Source: Geothrix fuzhouensis
Lineage (GTDB): Bacteria > Acidobacteriota > Holophagae > Holophagales > Holophagaceae
Assembly (NCBI RefSeq): GCF_024609325.1
Contig: NZ_JANHMQ010000005.1
Location: 124,001 to 188,000 of the forward strand
Direction: 5' to 3'
DNA length: 64,000 nt
The notes below the pieces were generated by a model. It was not told the DNA's origin, ran no database searches, and saw only the letters and a list, made by a program, of their open reading frames with translations. A program made the position numbers and the translations under genes. This document shows, piece after piece, positions 15,524-23,770 of this stretch. How positions within the stretch are numbered: the stretch's first letter is position 1; each line of letters starts with the position of its first letter.

Positions 15524-15542
<19 letters not shown>
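14856..15542 (-). CDS. aat: Leucyl/phenylalanyl-tRNA-protein transferase
   Basis: A 228-residue enzyme that adds Leu or Phe to N-terminal Arg/Lys of proteins, creating an N-degron. Family motifs are clear: DGLLAIGGDLSVERLLLAYR, then SGIFPWYGEGDPLLWWSPP, later GLYGVSLGRAFFGESMFS and DGQLPHEGLTGYG. The GTG at 15542 is the likely start; it overlaps the end of clpA by 19 bases, and the open frame further upstream is just antisense-frame noise inside clpA. The transferase creates signals that ClpS recognises and ClpA unfolds, so clpS-clpA-aat is a functional unit. Confidence 0.93.
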
Positions 15543-17779
<2,237 letters not shown>

Positions 17780-17805
17780 GGAGATCCCCAGAAAAGGACA
17801 ACTGA

Positions 17806-17917
17806 TCACCACCAAGACACCAGAATTCGGTTTGTCTCGCGTCTCCGTTACGCGGATACCGAGAAGACACCAAGAACTGTCTTTTCTTTTCTTGGTGCCT
17901 TGGTGTCTGGGTGGTGA
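17806..17917. repeat. Inverted repeat between clpS and clpA
   Basis: TCACCACCAAGACACCA at 17806-17822 faces TGGTGTCTGGGTGGTGA at 17901-17917: 16 of 17 positions pair. Inside are further CACCAAG and CTTGGTG words, so the whole 112-base block can fold on itself. It fills most of the 155-base gap between clpS and clpA. The word CACCAAGACACCAAG is typical of short dispersed repeats of some bacterial genomes. It might separate or process the clpS-clpA transcript. Confidence 0.7.
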
Positions 17918-17934
17918 GTATTTCTTCTTTCTGC

Positions 17935-18252
17935 TCAGGCATCTTCCGCCTCCACGGTCAGCAGCAGGGGGAAGCCTTCGCGTTCGGCCAGCTGGCGGCC
18001 ACGCTCGGCGCGGGTCTCGGCCACGTCCTTGGTGTAGACGCCCGCCACGCCCACGCCCGCCTTGTGGACGGCCAGCATGATGACCGTGGCTTCGGGCTCG
18101 GCCTTGCGGAAGACCGTCTTCAGCAGCCACACCACGAACTCCTGCGTGGTGTAGTCATCGTTGTGGAGGAGCACCTTCCACAGGCCGGGCTCTTTCACCT
18201 TCGCCCGCTGGCGGGTGAGGACCTGGCCCGCCTCCTTCGACTGCCTGGCCAT
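17935..18252 (-). CDS. clpS: ATP-dependent Clp protease adaptor ClpS
   Basis: A 105-residue adaptor that binds N-degron residues and delivers proteins to ClpA. The core reads LWKVLLHNDDYTTQEFVVWL with the conserved NDD(Y)T substrate-pocket motif, followed by ATVIMLAVHKAGVGVAGVYT (His and Gly of the ClpA-contact face) and KDVAETRAE. The N-terminal ~25 residues are flexible and basic. It is the first gene of clpS-clpA-aat on this strand. Confidence 0.95.
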   Translation of the reverse strand: MARQSKEAGQVLTRQRAKVKEPGLWKVLLHNDDYTTQEFVVWLLKTVFRKAEPEATVIMLAVHKAGVGVAGVYTKDVAETRAERGRQLAEREGFPLLLTVEAEDA

Positions 18253-18303
18253 GGATGACCCCTCCGGGGCATCAGGATAGCGGGTCCATTGCGGGAAGGA
18301 CCG

Positions 18304-19752
18304 TCAGGAGGGTCCCGAGCCCAATTTCCGATGAGCCAGCCTTGCGCCCACTCCTAGGTGGGAACTGGGCACGCCATGGATCGCCCACACCCAATCTCCC
18401 TCTCGTATGGCATCTTTGCCATGGCCGATCTGGCCCCCTTCGTCCGTCCCATTCCAGCCAAGGCTGTAGAGGACATAGCCCCCATCTTGCGTTCGCCGAT
18501 AATGCAGAGGGTTCCCACCAATCACATCGGAAGGGATGTGGGTTCCGATCTCAGCAAGCTGTTCGGGAAAGGCGTGTCTGGCCCGGCGATATCGCTCCAG
18601 TTCGCAGGCGATCCAGGCATGAGCGAAATCCATTTGAAAGCGGGCTGCCCGTATATTTTGAGCGGCCAGAGCCGGGCCCAAATCTGACACGAGGAAGGTA
18701 TACGGGTTACTGCCACTTTTGGAATGGACCATCAGCGCGGCTTCCTGCCGCCGCGGATCAATGCGGTGGGCAGCGATTTCCAGTGGATCAGAGACGATCT
18801 CCTGAATGCCGCGGGACCCCCGCACTGCGTTCTGCAAGATCCAGCCCCGCGGAATGGCCAGGTGGCGGAGGAACGCCATCACATGGCCAGGGCGGCTGGA
18901 CCCATCAAGAGAAGAATTAGGATACGGGGTCCACGCCCAAGGCGCTTCCCCAGCCACCTGTAACCAGAGTGCGCTCATGCCAGCCTGCTCCAATCGCCAG
19001 CTCCTGTCCAGGGAGGCGAGGAAGTCCGTTTTCGCCAGCATCTCCTGTAGTTCGGCAAGCTGCGGGTCGGTCCAGGCGTGCGCATCCATCCCTTCCCAGA
19101 TGGGCTGAAGCGCGAGGTTGGCCAAAGCCATATGCAGAAGCTGACAAAGCAGAATGGGTTCCCTTTCGAAATGGTTGGCCATCCTCAGAAGGGTGGTTAC
19201 ATCCTGGAAAGCCGCCTCGTTCCGTCCGTCCCGCAGGGCTGCAAGGGCCCGAAACTGCAGCATCCGCCCTGCCGCCCGGAAGCCGGACAAGTTCGGTACC
19301 TGCAGGTCGTCGGGGAAATGCGCATAGTCGATCGCCAGTCGGCAGCCTGGCCTCGCGGCCGCCATTCCGACCTCATCAAGGACCTTCTGATAGGACCCCA
19401 AGCCTTTCGGCACATCCCCGCCCGGGAAAGCCGCAGCGTAGGCTTCCAGATCCATGTGCCTCGCTTCCCGCCAGTCGGCCTTCCAATCCGGCCAATTGGC
19501 CGGAAGCGTCAGAAGGGGATGAGTCCCCTGGATGGCGGCGGCAATGCGAGGGATTGCGGCGAAATTCTCGTCATCCGGAACCGCCGGAGGGACATAGCTG
19601 GTGCGGTCGAAACGATAGCCCTCAGCTTCCTGTTCCTTCTGCCAAGCCGCCCAAGCCCGGTTCCCTCGCCAGTTCTCTACGACATGGAAAAGCACGAGGA
19701 GGGCCAGAAGGCCGCCAAGAGCATACAGGGTCCGTCGCATTAGGGTTTTCAT
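18304..19752 (-). CDS. Membrane-anchored protein of unknown function
   Basis: A 482-residue protein. After a basic start (MKTLMRRTLY) one hydrophobic helix spans about residues 9-25, so most of the protein is probably outside the cytoplasm. The rest is helical with no catalytic motif I recognise. Near the C-terminus is NPLHYRRTQDGGYVLYSLGW followed by NGTDEGG. That motif is common in uncharacterised proteins of Planctomycetes, Verrucomicrobia and Acidobacteria. It lies just downstream of an ECF sigma/anti-sigma pair, and its upstream region shares a TGTAACC-N15-GGTA pattern with the sigma gene, so it is probably a target of that sigma factor. Confidence 0.75.
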   Translation of the reverse strand: MKTLMRRTLYALGGLLALLVLFHVVENWRGNRAWAAWQKEQEAEGYRFDRTSYVPPAVPDDENFAAIPRIAAAIQGTHPLLTLPANWPDWKADWREARHMDLEAYAAAFPGGDVPKGLGSYQKVLDEVGMAAARPGCRLAIDYAHFPDDLQVPNLSGFRAAGRMLQFRALAALRDGRNEAAFQDVTTLLRMANHFEREPILLCQLLHMALANLALQPIWEGMDAHAWTDPQLAELQEMLAKTDFLASLDRSWRLEQAGMSALWLQVAGEAPWAWTPYPNSSLDGSSRPGHVMAFLRHLAIPRGWILQNAVRGSRGIQEIVSDPLEIAAHRIDPRRQEAALMVHSKSGSNPYTFLVSDLGPALAAQNIRAARFQMDFAHAWIACELERYRRARHAFPEQLAEIGTHIPSDVIGGNPLHYRRTQDGGYVLYSLGWNGTDEGGQIGHGKDAIREGDWVWAIHGVPSSHLGVGARLAHRKLGSGPS

Positions 19753-19788
19753 GGGGGCTCCAAGAAATGAGTCGTTCTTTTCAGTGAA

Positions 19789-19814
19789 TACCCCACTGCC
19801 CGGAAAGGGTTACA
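19789..19814 (-). promoter_or_regulatory. Candidate ECF promoter for the 482-residue protein
   Basis: On the minus strand TGTAACC (19814-19808) is followed by exactly 15 bases and GGTA (19792-19789), 37 bases before the start codon. The same TGTAACC-N15-GGTA pattern lies upstream of the ECF sigma gene at 21141-21116. Identical words at identical spacing in front of the sigma gene and its neighbour are what a shared sigma factor would need. The -35 box overlaps the end of the anti-sigma gene. Confidence 0.6.
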
Positions 19815-20550
19815 AGGACCGCCCTTCAAGCTGTGTCTGTACCCGGCGGACTACTTGAGGATCGGTGCCGGGAGCGTGCAGAAGGGTTTTCAACGCATCC
19901 AGAGCCCGCTGCTCTCGCAGAGCTCCAAGCAGGTCCACCAGAGCCAGCTGGACCCGTGTTGATGTCTGCCGGGGCAGGGAAGCGATCAGGTGCTCCCGAA
20001 CCTTTGGTTGACGGCCGAACAGGTAGAGCGCATCCACAGCTGCGAGCCGCACGGATTCGCTGGGATCCTTATCCAACAGATCCAGCATCGCCTCGGCGGG
20101 AGCAGGGTCCTCGGAATCGCCCTGGGAAGCGAGCATGATGCCAGCCATGCGCAGGCTTGGTCCGCCCTGGTGCAGCAGCGTGAAATCCGACCCGCGAGCC
20201 AGGCTTGTGATGTCGCTCCCACCGTGGGCCAGATAGCCGCCAAGGAAGCCGCCTCCGAGCAATAGCGCCGCAGCCGCAGCTTGGGGAAGCAGCTTCCACG
20301 GATGTCCCGAACGAGGATGGGGCGCCTCCGCCGCTTGCTCCAGTGCCTGGTAGAAGCGATTCCGCAGGGTGGGGCTCGGCTTCTCCAGCGGAAGCCCGTC
20401 CAATCGGAGCAGCAGCGCCATCAAATCGGCGGCCTCCTCCTGGCATTCCGGACAGGTCTCCAGGTGGGCTTGGAGAGCCACGCGGTCGACGGGGTCTAGG
20501 CCATCAACCAAGAGGCCAGGAAAACACTTCTCCGCCTCAGCGCAGTTCAT
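19810..20550 (-). CDS. Zinc-finger anti-sigma factor with C-terminal HEAT-like repeats
   Basis: A 246-residue protein. Residues ~1-45 form a putative zinc-binding anti-sigma domain with HLETCPEC (His-x3-Cys-x2-Cys) and an earlier Cys. A transmembrane helix (AAAAALLLGGGFLGGYLA) is near residue 100. The outer part contains helical repeats (VRLAAVDALYLFG, RVQLALVDLLGAL) that resemble HEAT repeats. It probably holds the cognate sigma factor at the membrane, with the repeat domain sensing or binding an outside partner. The ATG at 20550 overlaps the sigma stop as ATGA; an upstream in-frame ATG at 20637 lies inside the sigma gene. Confidence 0.85.
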   Translation of the reverse strand: MNCAEAEKCFPGLLVDGLDPVDRVALQAHLETCPECQEEAADLMALLLRLDGLPLEKPSPTLRNRFYQALEQAAEAPHPRSGHPWKLLPQAAAAALLLGGGFLGGYLAHGGSDITSLARGSDFTLLHQGGPSLRMAGIMLASQGDSEDPAPAEAMLDLLDKDPSESVRLAAVDALYLFGRQPKVREHLIASLPRQTSTRVQLALVDLLGALREQRALDALKTLLHAPGTDPQVVRRVQTQLEGRSL

Positions 20551-21092
20551 GAGAGGCCTCCCTGCAAATCCATGAAGACCGCTCTCAGCTCCTTCAAGGC
20601 TCGATGGACCTGGACCTTCACATTTCCGACACTGCACGCCATCAAGCCCGCCAAGTCCTTGTAGGCCAGATCTGGATTCCTGGAGAGCAGGAGGAGCTCA
20701 CGCTTGGTTGGATCGAGACGTTCAAGCGCCCACTTCAACCGGGCGGCATCCTGGCCCCGCATCAGGTGAATTTCAGCCCCGTCCAGATCATCGGGAATCC
20801 TCTCCTGGAGTCCCTCCAGTGGCAGATGGGCTCGAAGTGTCTGCAGGTGGTCACGGTGGACATTCCGGGCGATCTGCCACATCCAGGGGGCGAAGGGTGC
20901 GCCGGGGCGATAGCTGGATCGGTACCGCAGGAGGCGCAGAAACACGTCCTGCACGAGATCCTCGCTTAACCCGCGCTGCCCGGTCAGGCGCAAGAAGAAG
21001 TTAAAAAGGTGCAGGTGATGACGCTCGAAGACCAGGGCCAGTCGCTCCACACGACCCTCCCGGACCTGGGCCATGACTTCAGCATCCTCCAC
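20547..21092 (-). CDS. ECF-family RNA polymerase sigma factor
   Basis: A 181-residue sigma-70 family factor with only regions 2 and 4. Region 2: LFNFFLRLTGQRGLSEDLVQ, then DVFLRLLRYRSSY and the PWMWQIARNVHRD helix. Region 4: LDPTKRELLLLSRNPDLAYK, then LAGLMACSVGNVKVQVHRAL for -35 recognition. Translation starts at GTG with GGGAG just upstream. The overlapping anti-sigma gene follows, so the pair is made together. A TGTAACC-N15-GGTA sequence 24 bases upstream suggests autoregulation. The signal is unknown. Confidence 0.92.
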   Translation of the reverse strand: MEDAEVMAQVREGRVERLALVFERHHLHLFNFFLRLTGQRGLSEDLVQDVFLRLLRYRSSYRPGAPFAPWMWQIARNVHRDHLQTLRAHLPLEGLQERIPDDLDGAEIHLMRGQDAARLKWALERLDPTKRELLLLSRNPDLAYKDLAGLMACSVGNVKVQVHRALKELRAVFMDLQGGLS

Positions 21093-21115
21093 TGGCGAGT
21101 CTCCCTGGATCTATC

Positions 21116-21141
21116 TACCGGGGTCGGCGGGAATGGTTACA
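21116..21141 (-). promoter_or_regulatory. Candidate autoregulatory promoter of the ECF sigma gene
   Basis: TGTAACC (21141-21135) then 15 bases then GGTA (21119-21116) on the minus strand, 24 bases before the GTG start. It matches the element at 19814-19789 in both words and spacing. Autoregulation is usual for ECF factors with a linked anti-sigma gene. The short leader leaves room for the ribosome-binding site GGGAG. Confidence 0.6.
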
Positions 21142-21206
21142 TGGGTTTGGCCATCGAGTCGGAGAAGCCACGACCTGGCCATCCATCCTGTTGGGCGGAT
21201 TGACGC

Positions 21207-21554
21207 CTATGCCCGCCCTTTCCCTTCGAGCCTCACGAACCCGCCCCTCGCTAGCTCCCGGACGAACAAGGCCGTCCGCAAGACCGTGTCCGGTTCCCCA
21301 GGGAAGGCGGCGGCGATGGCCTGGACCACCTCCGCCACGGTGCGAACCCCGTCGCAGGCCTGCCATACGGCCGTGCCGCGGGCATCGAGCTTCACGCGGA
21401 AGTTGGGTCGCTTCATCAGCCGAACCACCCAGCCCCAGCGTGGCGACAGGATCTTGGGCCGGATCAGCACCAGGTTTCCGCCCTCGCCGGGCTCTGAGGC
21501 CAGGGCCTGGACTGGCACGAGGGCGAGGAAGGATTCATCGGGGAAGGTCGTCAT
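21207..21554 (-). CDS. PqqD-family protein
   Basis: A 115-residue protein. The central part RVKLDARGTAVWQACDGVRT followed by VAEVVQAI matches the PqqD-like winged fold that binds precursor peptides in RiPP pathways. No radical SAM enzyme, precursor peptide or other RiPP gene is visible nearby, so it may be one of the stand-alone PqqD-like proteins with an unassigned role. It lies downstream of the OPT transporter gene on the same strand but is separated from it by a strong terminator. Confidence 0.75.
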   Translation of the reverse strand: MTTFPDESFLALVPVQALASEPGEGGNLVLIRPKILSPRWGWVVRLMKRPNFRVKLDARGTAVWQACDGVRTVAEVVQAIAAAFPGEPDTVLRTALFVRELARGGFVRLEGKGRA

Positions 21555-21581
21555 GGTTTGCGTTCCGATGGGGAGGTGAAA

Positions 21582-21610
21582 GCGAAGGCCCGGCTAAGCC
21601 GGGCCTTCGC
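21582..21610 (-). terminator. Hairpin terminator after the OPT transporter gene
   Basis: GCGAAGGCCCGGC-TAA-GCCGGGCCTTCGC is a perfect 13-base-pair stem with a 3-base loop. It lies 45 bases after the transporter stop, between it and the PqqD-like gene. A T-run is not obvious, so termination strength on this strand is uncertain, but the stem is exceptionally stable. Confidence 0.75.
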
Positions 21611-21655
21611 GCGGGGGTCCGGGGGTGTGCGCGCAGCGCGGAACCCCGGAGGACA

Positions 21656-23770
21656 TCAGAAATTCGCACTCGGTGGCGCAGGCTCGTCGGCTTCGCCGGC
21701 GTTGGCCAGGGGCACCCGGATCAGGTAGACGGCGATGCCGGCCAGGATCAGCAGGCTGATCCAGAACATGCCCGGGTCGGCGAAGACCTTGTACTTCACC
21801 TCGAAGAAGGCGAAGGACGCGAAGAGCAGGCCCACCAGGGCCTCGCCGGCGATGAGGCCTGCGGCCAGCAGGACGCCGTTGTTCTCCACCCGCACCTTCT
21901 GGGCCTCGTTGAGGCCCCGCTTGGCGCCGATCATCTCCACGGCGCCCTTGATGAGGCCGCCGAGGAAGATGGCGAAGGTGGTCTCCAACGGCAGGTACAT
22001 GCCCACCGACACCAGCATGGGGCTCTTCACCTGCATGAGGATGAAGGCGAGGCCCATCATCATGCCGACGATGATGAGCGGCCAGGCCATCTTGCCTTCC
22101 ACGATGCCCTTGCTGAGCAGGGCCATGAGGCCGGCCTGGGGCGCGGCGAGCTGCTTGGAGCCGAAGCCGGCATCCAGGGAGAGCACGGCCTTCTTCTGAT
22201 CCGCGGGCAGCTGCTTCACCTGCTCCAGGGTGTAGGTCTGACCGTCGGGCGCCGTGACGATCTGCACCTGCTGGGCGGTCAGCTCGGCGATGCGCTTGGT
22301 GCCCTGGGCGGAGATGTCGCCTTCGTGCAGCACCATGAGGGGGATGAACAGCACCACGGAGGCCAGGGCCACGCCGATGAGGTCGCCCATCTCCATGCGC
22401 CACGGGGTGCCGCCCAGGATGTGCCCGGCCTTGAGGTCCTGCAGCATCTCACCGGCCACGGCCGCGCTCACGCAGACCACCGCGGCCACGCCCAGAACGG
22501 CAGCGACGCCCTCCTTGCCCTTCACGCCGAGGAGCACCATGACGAGGGCGGTGATCACCAGGGCCGTCAGAGTCAGGCCGGAGATCGGGTTGTTGCTCGA
22601 GCCCATGATGCCGACCAGGTAGCCGCTGATGGCCGCGAAGAAGAAGCCCAGGATCACCACCACCAGGGCCGCCACGAAGGAGACCAGCGGGCTCACCTGG
22701 AAGATGCGCCAGGTGATGAAGAACGTCACCAGGGCGGCGAAACCGAGGCCGAGCAGGACGTAGCTGAAGGACAGGTCCTTGTTGACGCGGTCCACCACGT
22801 GTTCGCCGGCGGCGGCCTTCTTCATGTCCGAGACGGAGCGGGTGAGGCCCGTGGCGAGGCTCTTGCGCATCTTGAAGAGGGTGAAGCCGGCGCCCACGAG
22901 CATGCCGCCGATGGCGATGGGGCGGACGATGAACTTCCACACGGAATACGACAGGGAGATCCAGTCACCTTGGGAGGCACCGTCAGGCAGGACGCCAGGC
23001 GCCAGGAAGTAGGTGATGATGGGCACCAGCAGTCCCCAGGCGATGATGCCGCCGGAGAAGTTCAGGGCGCCGAGCTTGGGCCCGATGATGTAGCCCACGC
23101 CCATGTAGGCGGGGCTGATGCCGGGGGAGCTGAGCAGCATGCCGCCTGCCACCTTGGCCTTCCAGGTGCCGACGAGGTTGATGGTGGTGGTCTTGAAGGC
23201 CACGAACCGCTCCCAGGTGCTGGCGAAGATCGAGATCTGCACCAGGGCCTGGATGACAGCGCCGATGCCCATGGCGCCGAACAGGAACTTCGTGCCGCTG
23301 CCCCCGCGGGCGCCGGCCTTGTGGATCTCAGCGGCGGCCACGCTCTCGGGATAGGGCAGCTCGGCGTCCTCCACCATCACGCGGCGGAGCAGGGCCACGA
23401 ACATGATGCCCAGCACGCCGCCCGCGAACATGATGAGGGCACTGGTGACGTAGTTGCCGGCCGTGAAGAACTTGGGCCAGATGCCGCTGATGGCGAAGGC
23501 CGGAATGGTGAAGATGGCGCCGGCGGCCACGGACTCGCCGATGCTGCCGACGGTTCGGGCCATGTTCTCTTCCAGGATGGTGCCCTTCATCAGCTTGATG
23601 AGGGCCATGCCGATGACCGCCGCCGGATAGGTGGCGGCGATGGTCATGCCGGCCTTCAAGCCGAGGTAGGCGTTGGCGGAACCCAGCACCACGGCCATGA
23701 CAAGGCCGATGAGCACCGCCCGCAGGGAGAACTCCCGCAGGTTCTGGTCGGAGGGGACAAAGGGTTGCAT
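21656..23770 (-). CDS. OPT-family oligopeptide transporter
   Basis: A 704-residue membrane protein with about 14-16 hydrophobic helices. The N-terminal region reads FSLRAVLIGLVMAVVLGSAN then AYLGLKAGMTIAATYPAAVI, characteristic of the bacterial OPT family. Later segments such as SSPGISPAYMGVGYIIGPKL also match. Family members move oligopeptides or metal chelates, driven by protons; the substrate here is unknown. AGGAG lies 6 bases before the ATG. It is divergent from the trmH-lnt-maf operon. Confidence 0.92.
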   Translation of the reverse strand: MQPFVPSDQNLREFSLRAVLIGLVMAVVLGSANAYLGLKAGMTIAATYPAAVIGMALIKLMKGTILEENMARTVGSIGESVAAGAIFTIPAFAISGIWPKFFTAGNYVTSALIMFAGGVLGIMFVALLRRVMVEDAELPYPESVAAAEIHKAGARGGSGTKFLFGAMGIGAVIQALVQISIFASTWERFVAFKTTTINLVGTWKAKVAGGMLLSSPGISPAYMGVGYIIGPKLGALNFSGGIIAWGLLVPIITYFLAPGVLPDGASQGDWISLSYSVWKFIVRPIAIGGMLVGAGFTLFKMRKSLATGLTRSVSDMKKAAAGEHVVDRVNKDLSFSYVLLGLGFAALVTFFITWRIFQVSPLVSFVAALVVVILGFFFAAISGYLVGIMGSSNNPISGLTLTALVITALVMVLLGVKGKEGVAAVLGVAAVVCVSAAVAGEMLQDLKAGHILGGTPWRMEMGDLIGVALASVVLFIPLMVLHEGDISAQGTKRIAELTAQQVQIVTAPDGQTYTLEQVKQLPADQKKAVLSLDAGFGSKQLAAPQAGLMALLSKGIVEGKMAWPLIIVGMMMGLAFILMQVKSPMLVSVGMYLPLETTFAIFLGGLIKGAVEMIGAKRGLNEAQKVRVENNGVLLAAGLIAGEALVGLLFASFAFFEVKYKVFADPGMFWISLLILAGIAVYLIRVPLANAGEADEPAPPSANF

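Follow-up and report, generated by a model that had tools for sequence, protein, structure and literature searches.

Described ECF systems and the Geothrix locus

Classical ECF systems are characterized by AAC in the -35 and CGT in the -10 word of the promoter, by an anti-sigma factor co-transcribed with the sigma factor, and by positive autoregulation (PMC8103513). About 55% of ECFs are autoregulated, FecI-like systems are not, and later classifications no longer use the AAC/CGT promoter as a defining feature (PMC8103513). The locus studied here is located in a 64,000-nucleotide stretch of DNA from Geothrix fuzhouensis (the window). It shares the general features of classical ECF operons with class I anti-sigma factors (PMC8103513, PMC7406223): the sigma factor contains only the sigma2 and sigma4 domains, the anti-sigma gene is positioned directly downstream, its product has an HxxxCxxC motif and one membrane helix, and AAC is present in the predicted -35 word in front of the sigma factor's own gene. 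The locus differs from the classical operons in the HEAT-repeat outer part of the anti-sigma factor and in a second, identical predicted promoter placed over the anti-sigma stop codon. The proposed Geothrix circuit would fit the classical ECF features except for the -10 word; nearly all of the -35 words of the Holophagae elements contain AAC, whereas the -10 word is GGTA and not CGT.

Promoters of the Bacillus subtilis sigma-W and sigma-X type are formed by the words TGAAAC or TGTAAC and CGTA or CGAC. They have a TGWAAC -35 word and a small -10 word in common with the Geothrix elements, but differ in the spacer and in the -10 word itself, and the sigma-W and sigma-X regulons are far larger than the one predicted here. 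FecI of Escherichia coli and SigV or SigY of B. subtilis are narrow-regulon ECF systems, with very few targets beside the sigma gene. The locus described here resembles them in its few predicted sigma-adjacent targets, but the target is an unrelated membrane-anchored protein of 482 residues. The kind of system is already familiar; what appears to be new here is the family of the partner protein, the promoter predicted over a stop codon, and the very small size of the predicted regulon. In the literature searched, we found no paper describing the trio of sigma factor, anti-sigma factor, and 482-residue protein, none describing anti-sigma factors with HEAT domains, and little on ECF sigma factors of Acidobacteriota (Holophagae).

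The identities of the sigma and anti-sigma factors proposed in the initial annotation are borne out by domain matches in Pfam and NCBIfam (Table 1). The sigma factor matches Sigma70_r2 (7e-13, residues 22–86) and Sigma70_r4_2 (2.4e-10, residues 122–169), and sigma2 and sigma4 are its only domains, which identifies it as an ECF. It scores 83 bits against TIGR02937 (sigma70-ECF), above the curated cut-off of 42.9, and the best NCBIfam equivalogs all stay far under their cut-offs. The anti-sigma factor matches zf-HC2 (4.8e-6) and HEAT_2 (2.7e-9). It has the N-terminal Hx3Cx2C of class I (ASDI) zinc-binding anti-sigma factors, and residues H29, C33, and C36 are invariant in nine orthologues. The model of the anti-sigma factor has a mean pLDDT of 76.5 and is weak near the membrane helix. 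The anti-sigma start overlaps the sigma stop codon (ATGA), so that the two genes can share one transcript and are likely co-transcribed. A lone PqqD-like gene (115 residues, window positions 21207–21554) is located directly before the sigma promoter and adjoins an OPT-like transporter gene.

Table 1. Genes and predicted promoters of the locus, in window positions.
Feature	Position	Strand	Description
Predicted sigma-dependent promoter 1	21116..21141	(-)	exact TGTAACC-N15-GGTA; -35 TGTAACC, -10 GGTA; upstream of the sigma gene
ECF sigma factor gene	20547..21092	(-)	181 residues, GTG start; Pfam and TIGR02937 matches
Anti-sigma factor gene	19810..20550	(-)	246 residues; zf-HC2, membrane helix ~84-108, HEAT-repeat domain ~115-245
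Predicted sigma-dependent promoter 2	19789..19814	(-)	exact TGTAACC-N15-GGTA; anti-sigma stop TAA (19812-19810) within the -35 word
Membrane-anchored protein gene	18304..19752	(-)	482 residues; N-terminal helix 2-43, helical domain, C-terminal GspG-like domain 364-457

The predicted promoter element and its conservation

The initial annotation had reported the same two words at the same spacing before the sigma gene and the gene for the 482-residue protein; both copies are exact, and the spacer has 15 bases in each. The element is separated by 23 bases from the GTG of the sigma gene and by 36 bases from the ATG of the 482-residue protein gene, and the distances of 24 and 37 bases given previously denote the same positions counted differently. 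Sites in the genome (3,318,792 bases in 6 contigs, 97% complete) were sought by strict, relaxed, and one-mismatch pattern matching. The search for TGTAACC-N14 to 16-GGTA found two sites in the 3.3-Mb genome, both at this locus, and the pattern read backwards, used as a control, occurs four times. Allowing one mismatch at a spacing of N15 gives 7 sites in the whole genome, versus 38 for the backward control. Four of the five one-mismatch sites that accompany the two exact ones are intragenic, and the fifth lies upstream of a ppiD-like gene. None of the three pattern searches provided a further convincing site in the genome, which supports the earlier description of the circuit as self-contained. 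No sigma-70-like promoter was found in window positions 18200–21700.

The site before the ppiD-like gene (G000:C2:20982) was rejected as a target, since six genomes that do not have a sigma factor of this group retain its words and it sits in the divergent region between the ppiD-like gene and def. This region (L177:1470-1548; G000:C2 ~20950-21030) contains a strongly conserved TGTAAT...GGTAATCTG pair, which occurs in genomes of the genus both with and without a sigma factor of this group and is probably a conserved housekeeping promoter.

Among 93 genomes of the class, ten others encode a sigma factor of this group. The genes for the sigma factor, the anti-sigma factor, and the 482-residue protein follow each other in this order at eight loci (in G. 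fuzhouensis, G044, G048, G023, G004, G076, G083, and G087); the sigma identity of the relatives with this three-gene locus is 45–70%. The Holophagae sigma factors form one clade, as do the Holophagae 482-residue proteins. We scored the best match to TGWAACC-N15-GGTA (11 positions) within 150 upstream bases; the W at position 3 was admitted after the relatives had been seen, which slightly favours the sigma gene of G076 and the 482-residue protein gene of G048. Upstream of the sigma gene, the score is 11 in G. fuzhouensis, G044, G019, G048, G076, G083, and G087, 10 in G023, and 9 in G004, G073, and G036, so that the element is exact or has at most two changes in the ten other genomes. G073 and G036, with the weaker element, have no neighbouring gene of the 482-residue family. 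Upstream of the 482-residue protein gene, loci with an adjacent sigma gene score 11 (G. fuzhouensis, G044, G023, G004, and G087), 10 (G076 and G083), and 8 (G048, which has only TGAAACC...CGAT, no better than chance). Scores of 10 and 11 are reached by at most 1 in 500 shuffles of the same region. The nine relatives that lack an adjacent sigma gene score 7, 7, 6, 8, 6, 6, 7, 7, and 7, and none of them has the element, which was thus seen upstream of the 482-residue protein gene only where a sigma gene is adjacent; the orthologues are related, and these conservation counts are not fully independent.

According to the initial annotation, loss of the motifs in relatives would refute its reading; the motifs are retained, with exact spacing before the sigma gene and at seven of the eight loci before the 482-residue protein gene. 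The spacer and flanks vary freely between genomes, while the two words and the distance between them are conserved. The repeat of two similar words could in principle be an accident in a GC-rich genome, and loose matches in the window, with up to two mismatches, are no commoner than chance (6 observed, about 4 expected). However, the genome of 3.3 Mb has no exact sites other than those before the sigma and 482-residue protein genes, and their conservation refutes this explanation, which is almost certainly wrong. The words sit 19–42 bases from the start codons, the spacer is fixed at 15 bases, and the -35 words have an AAC core, all of which argues against ordinary transcription factor binding sites in place of the -35 and -10 words of a sigma factor. 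Although GGTA is not a textbook ECF -10 word and the promoter starts are predictions from sequence, the words follow the sigma gene across genomes, and in Verrucomicrobiota different words precede the sigma genes of other clades. We therefore consider binding sites of this kind very unlikely.

The -35 word of promoter 2 is formed by the last anti-sigma codon and the stop codon (NTG-TAA-C) at seven of the eight orthologous loci. At the eighth, in G048, the anti-sigma gene ends with CTG-TGA-AACC, which yields TGAAACC. The last codon is NTG, for leucine or methionine, at all eight loci, whereas the end of the protein is otherwise variable, so that the constraint appears to act on the DNA, and the stop-codon overlap reads as a reflection of it. 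The opposite view is that the second copy owes its retention solely to the Leu-stop codons of the anti-sigma gene, with which it coincides, and not to a promoter function. This could account for TGTAA, which is the NTG-TAA of the anti-sigma end at seven of eight loci, but not for the rest of the element: the C or CC that follows the stop codon, the spacing of 15 bases, and GGTA are noncoding and yet kept while everything between them varies. Furthermore, in G036 the sigma and anti-sigma genes are followed by another gene (DUF4097) and not by one for the 482-residue protein, and the anti-sigma gene ends with CAA-TAA and the element is absent. A purely coding constraint is extremely improbable.

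Extra sites in two relatives suggest added targets. In G076 (L117:7405-9702), a third exact TGTAACC-N15-GGTA precedes an operon encoding a DUF418 membrane protein and a CAAX/Rce1-type protease, directly downstream of the 482-residue protein gene. In G048, a DUF418 gene likewise follows the 482-residue protein gene, without a clear element, and a TGTAACT-N15-GGTA faces away from the sigma gene, towards a gene whose product has a carboxypeptidase-regulatory domain. The locus of G019 (L044:5292-6205) is decayed: the first 75–79 sigma codons run straight into the final 200 codons of the gene for the 482-residue protein, and the anti-sigma gene is gone, but the promoter is intact.

The 482-residue protein and its family

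The 482-residue protein, searched alone, has no match in Pfam or NCBIfam. Members of its family match T2SSG weakly (20 of 41), and the family profile identified GspG (PDB: 2kep) with an E-value of 2e-4. In the AlphaFold2 model (pLDDT 89.8, pTM 0.88), a long N-terminal helix leads into a helical body, and the C-terminal domain is alpha/beta. The C-terminal domain superposes on two structures of the major pseudopilin, 3gn9 (Z 9.0, rmsd 2.2, 85 residues) and 4lw9 (Z 8.6). A Foldseek search with the whole chain gave nothing significant, including for the helical part, whose structural matches are no better than those usual for helical arrangements. The protein shares the GspG fold (PDB: 3gn9, 4lw9, 2kep) but is not a pseudopilin: the GspG-like domain is placed near the C-terminus of a large, helical, membrane-anchored chain, and at the N-terminus a long anchor helix precedes the helical body, where a pseudopilin has a prepilin leader and pilin helix joined directly to the GspG domain.

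The clpS and clpA genes (window positions 15527–18252) lie 52 bases downstream of the 482-residue protein gene on the same strand. No terminator-like site was found between that gene and the clp genes, and read-through into clpS/clpA from the sigma promoter is conceivable. The link is not conserved; other genes follow the 482-residue protein gene in the relatives inspected.

A scan of 84,980 species genomes identified 49 loci of the 482-residue family, mostly in Verrucomicrobiota. Outside Holophagae, 40 family genes, mostly of Verrucomicrobiota, had enough upstream sequence to be examined; for 26 of them an ECF sigma gene lies on the same strand no more than 1 kb upstream, and for 14 it does not. 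Candidates for zinc-finger, membrane-anchored anti-sigma factors are encoded between the two genes at several of these loci. The sigma factors outside Holophagae belong to several clades, and the words in front of their genes include TGAACCTTT...CATTC, AGACAAA...CGTCA, and TGTAATAAAA... Sigma clade and promoter word go together, with TGTAACC/GGTA in Holophagae and other words in the Verrucomicrobiota clades. In Verrucomicrobiota, the words were found only before the sigma gene, and no second copy was found before the gene of the 482-residue family. In these sequence comparisons, the pairing extends widely, and a second promoter is seen only in Holophagae. Two Verrucomicrobiota loci are tandem arrays, one with three sigma and three family genes in 9 kb (L120:4727-13424) and the other with two sigma and three family genes (L125:1724-9836); different promoter words precede each sigma gene in the arrays. 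The position of the family behind ECF sigma genes seems to be undescribed in the papers searched.

The 482-residue protein might be a regulatory partner, which acts with the outer domain of the anti-sigma factor as a co-sensor or feedback inhibitor and whose own promoter provides negative feedback. Such a role fits the location of the family directly behind an ECF sigma gene in the 26 genes outside Holophagae and at eight Holophagae loci, the differing make-up of the neighbouring anti-sigma factors, and the fact that the protein is the sole predicted target in its own genome. However, a target gene would be expected to lie there just as much. Many relatives, including some of the same genus, have no sigma gene next to them (nine Holophagae loci, and 14 of 40 genes elsewhere), and the protein can therefore serve without a sigma partner. 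On balance, we regard a regulatory role as rather unlikely. Tentatively, although this is less likely than not, ECF signalling in Verrucomicrobiota and Holophagae may have a general third component in this family of membrane-anchored helical/GspG-like proteins, which would partner several clades of ECF and anti-sigma factors as a common output or co-sensor, and would have gained its own stop-codon promoter in Holophagae.

Proposed circuit and its significance

The locus very probably encodes an autoregulated ECF circuit, a switch of the stress type, in which the sigma factor would drive itself, the anti-sigma factor, and the 482-residue protein from two identical predicted promoters. This is the circuit put forward in the initial annotation, and the comparison of genomes strongly supports it, as conservation of the predicted element is tied to the adjacent sigma gene. 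The same comparison shows which words make up the predicted promoters, how far apart they are, that they accompany the sigma gene, and which domains the proteins contain.

At rest, the sigma factor would be held by the membrane-bound zinc-finger anti-sigma factor. Its release would be triggered by a signal from the envelope, which the anti-sigma factor probably senses through its HEAT-repeat domain across the membrane, and the sigma factor with RNA polymerase would read TGTAACC-N15-GGTA at two places. Promoter 1 would raise the sigma and anti-sigma factors together, which provides positive feedback with a built-in brake, and promoter 2 would increase the amount of the 482-residue membrane-anchored protein. 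This protein would be the main output, as the only other predicted product in the genome. We infer the release upon a signal, the side of the membrane, and the function of the 482-residue protein as an effector and not a co-sensor.

For one group of ECF sigma factors in Acidobacteriota (Holophagae), the analysis yields a promoter word that is clean and can be tested, and it brings to notice a widespread protein family behind ECF sigma genes. With two promoters in a genome of 3.3 Mb, the sigma circuit would be very small, which would help in studying its signal and its single output; it might also find use as an orthogonal switch in synthetic work.
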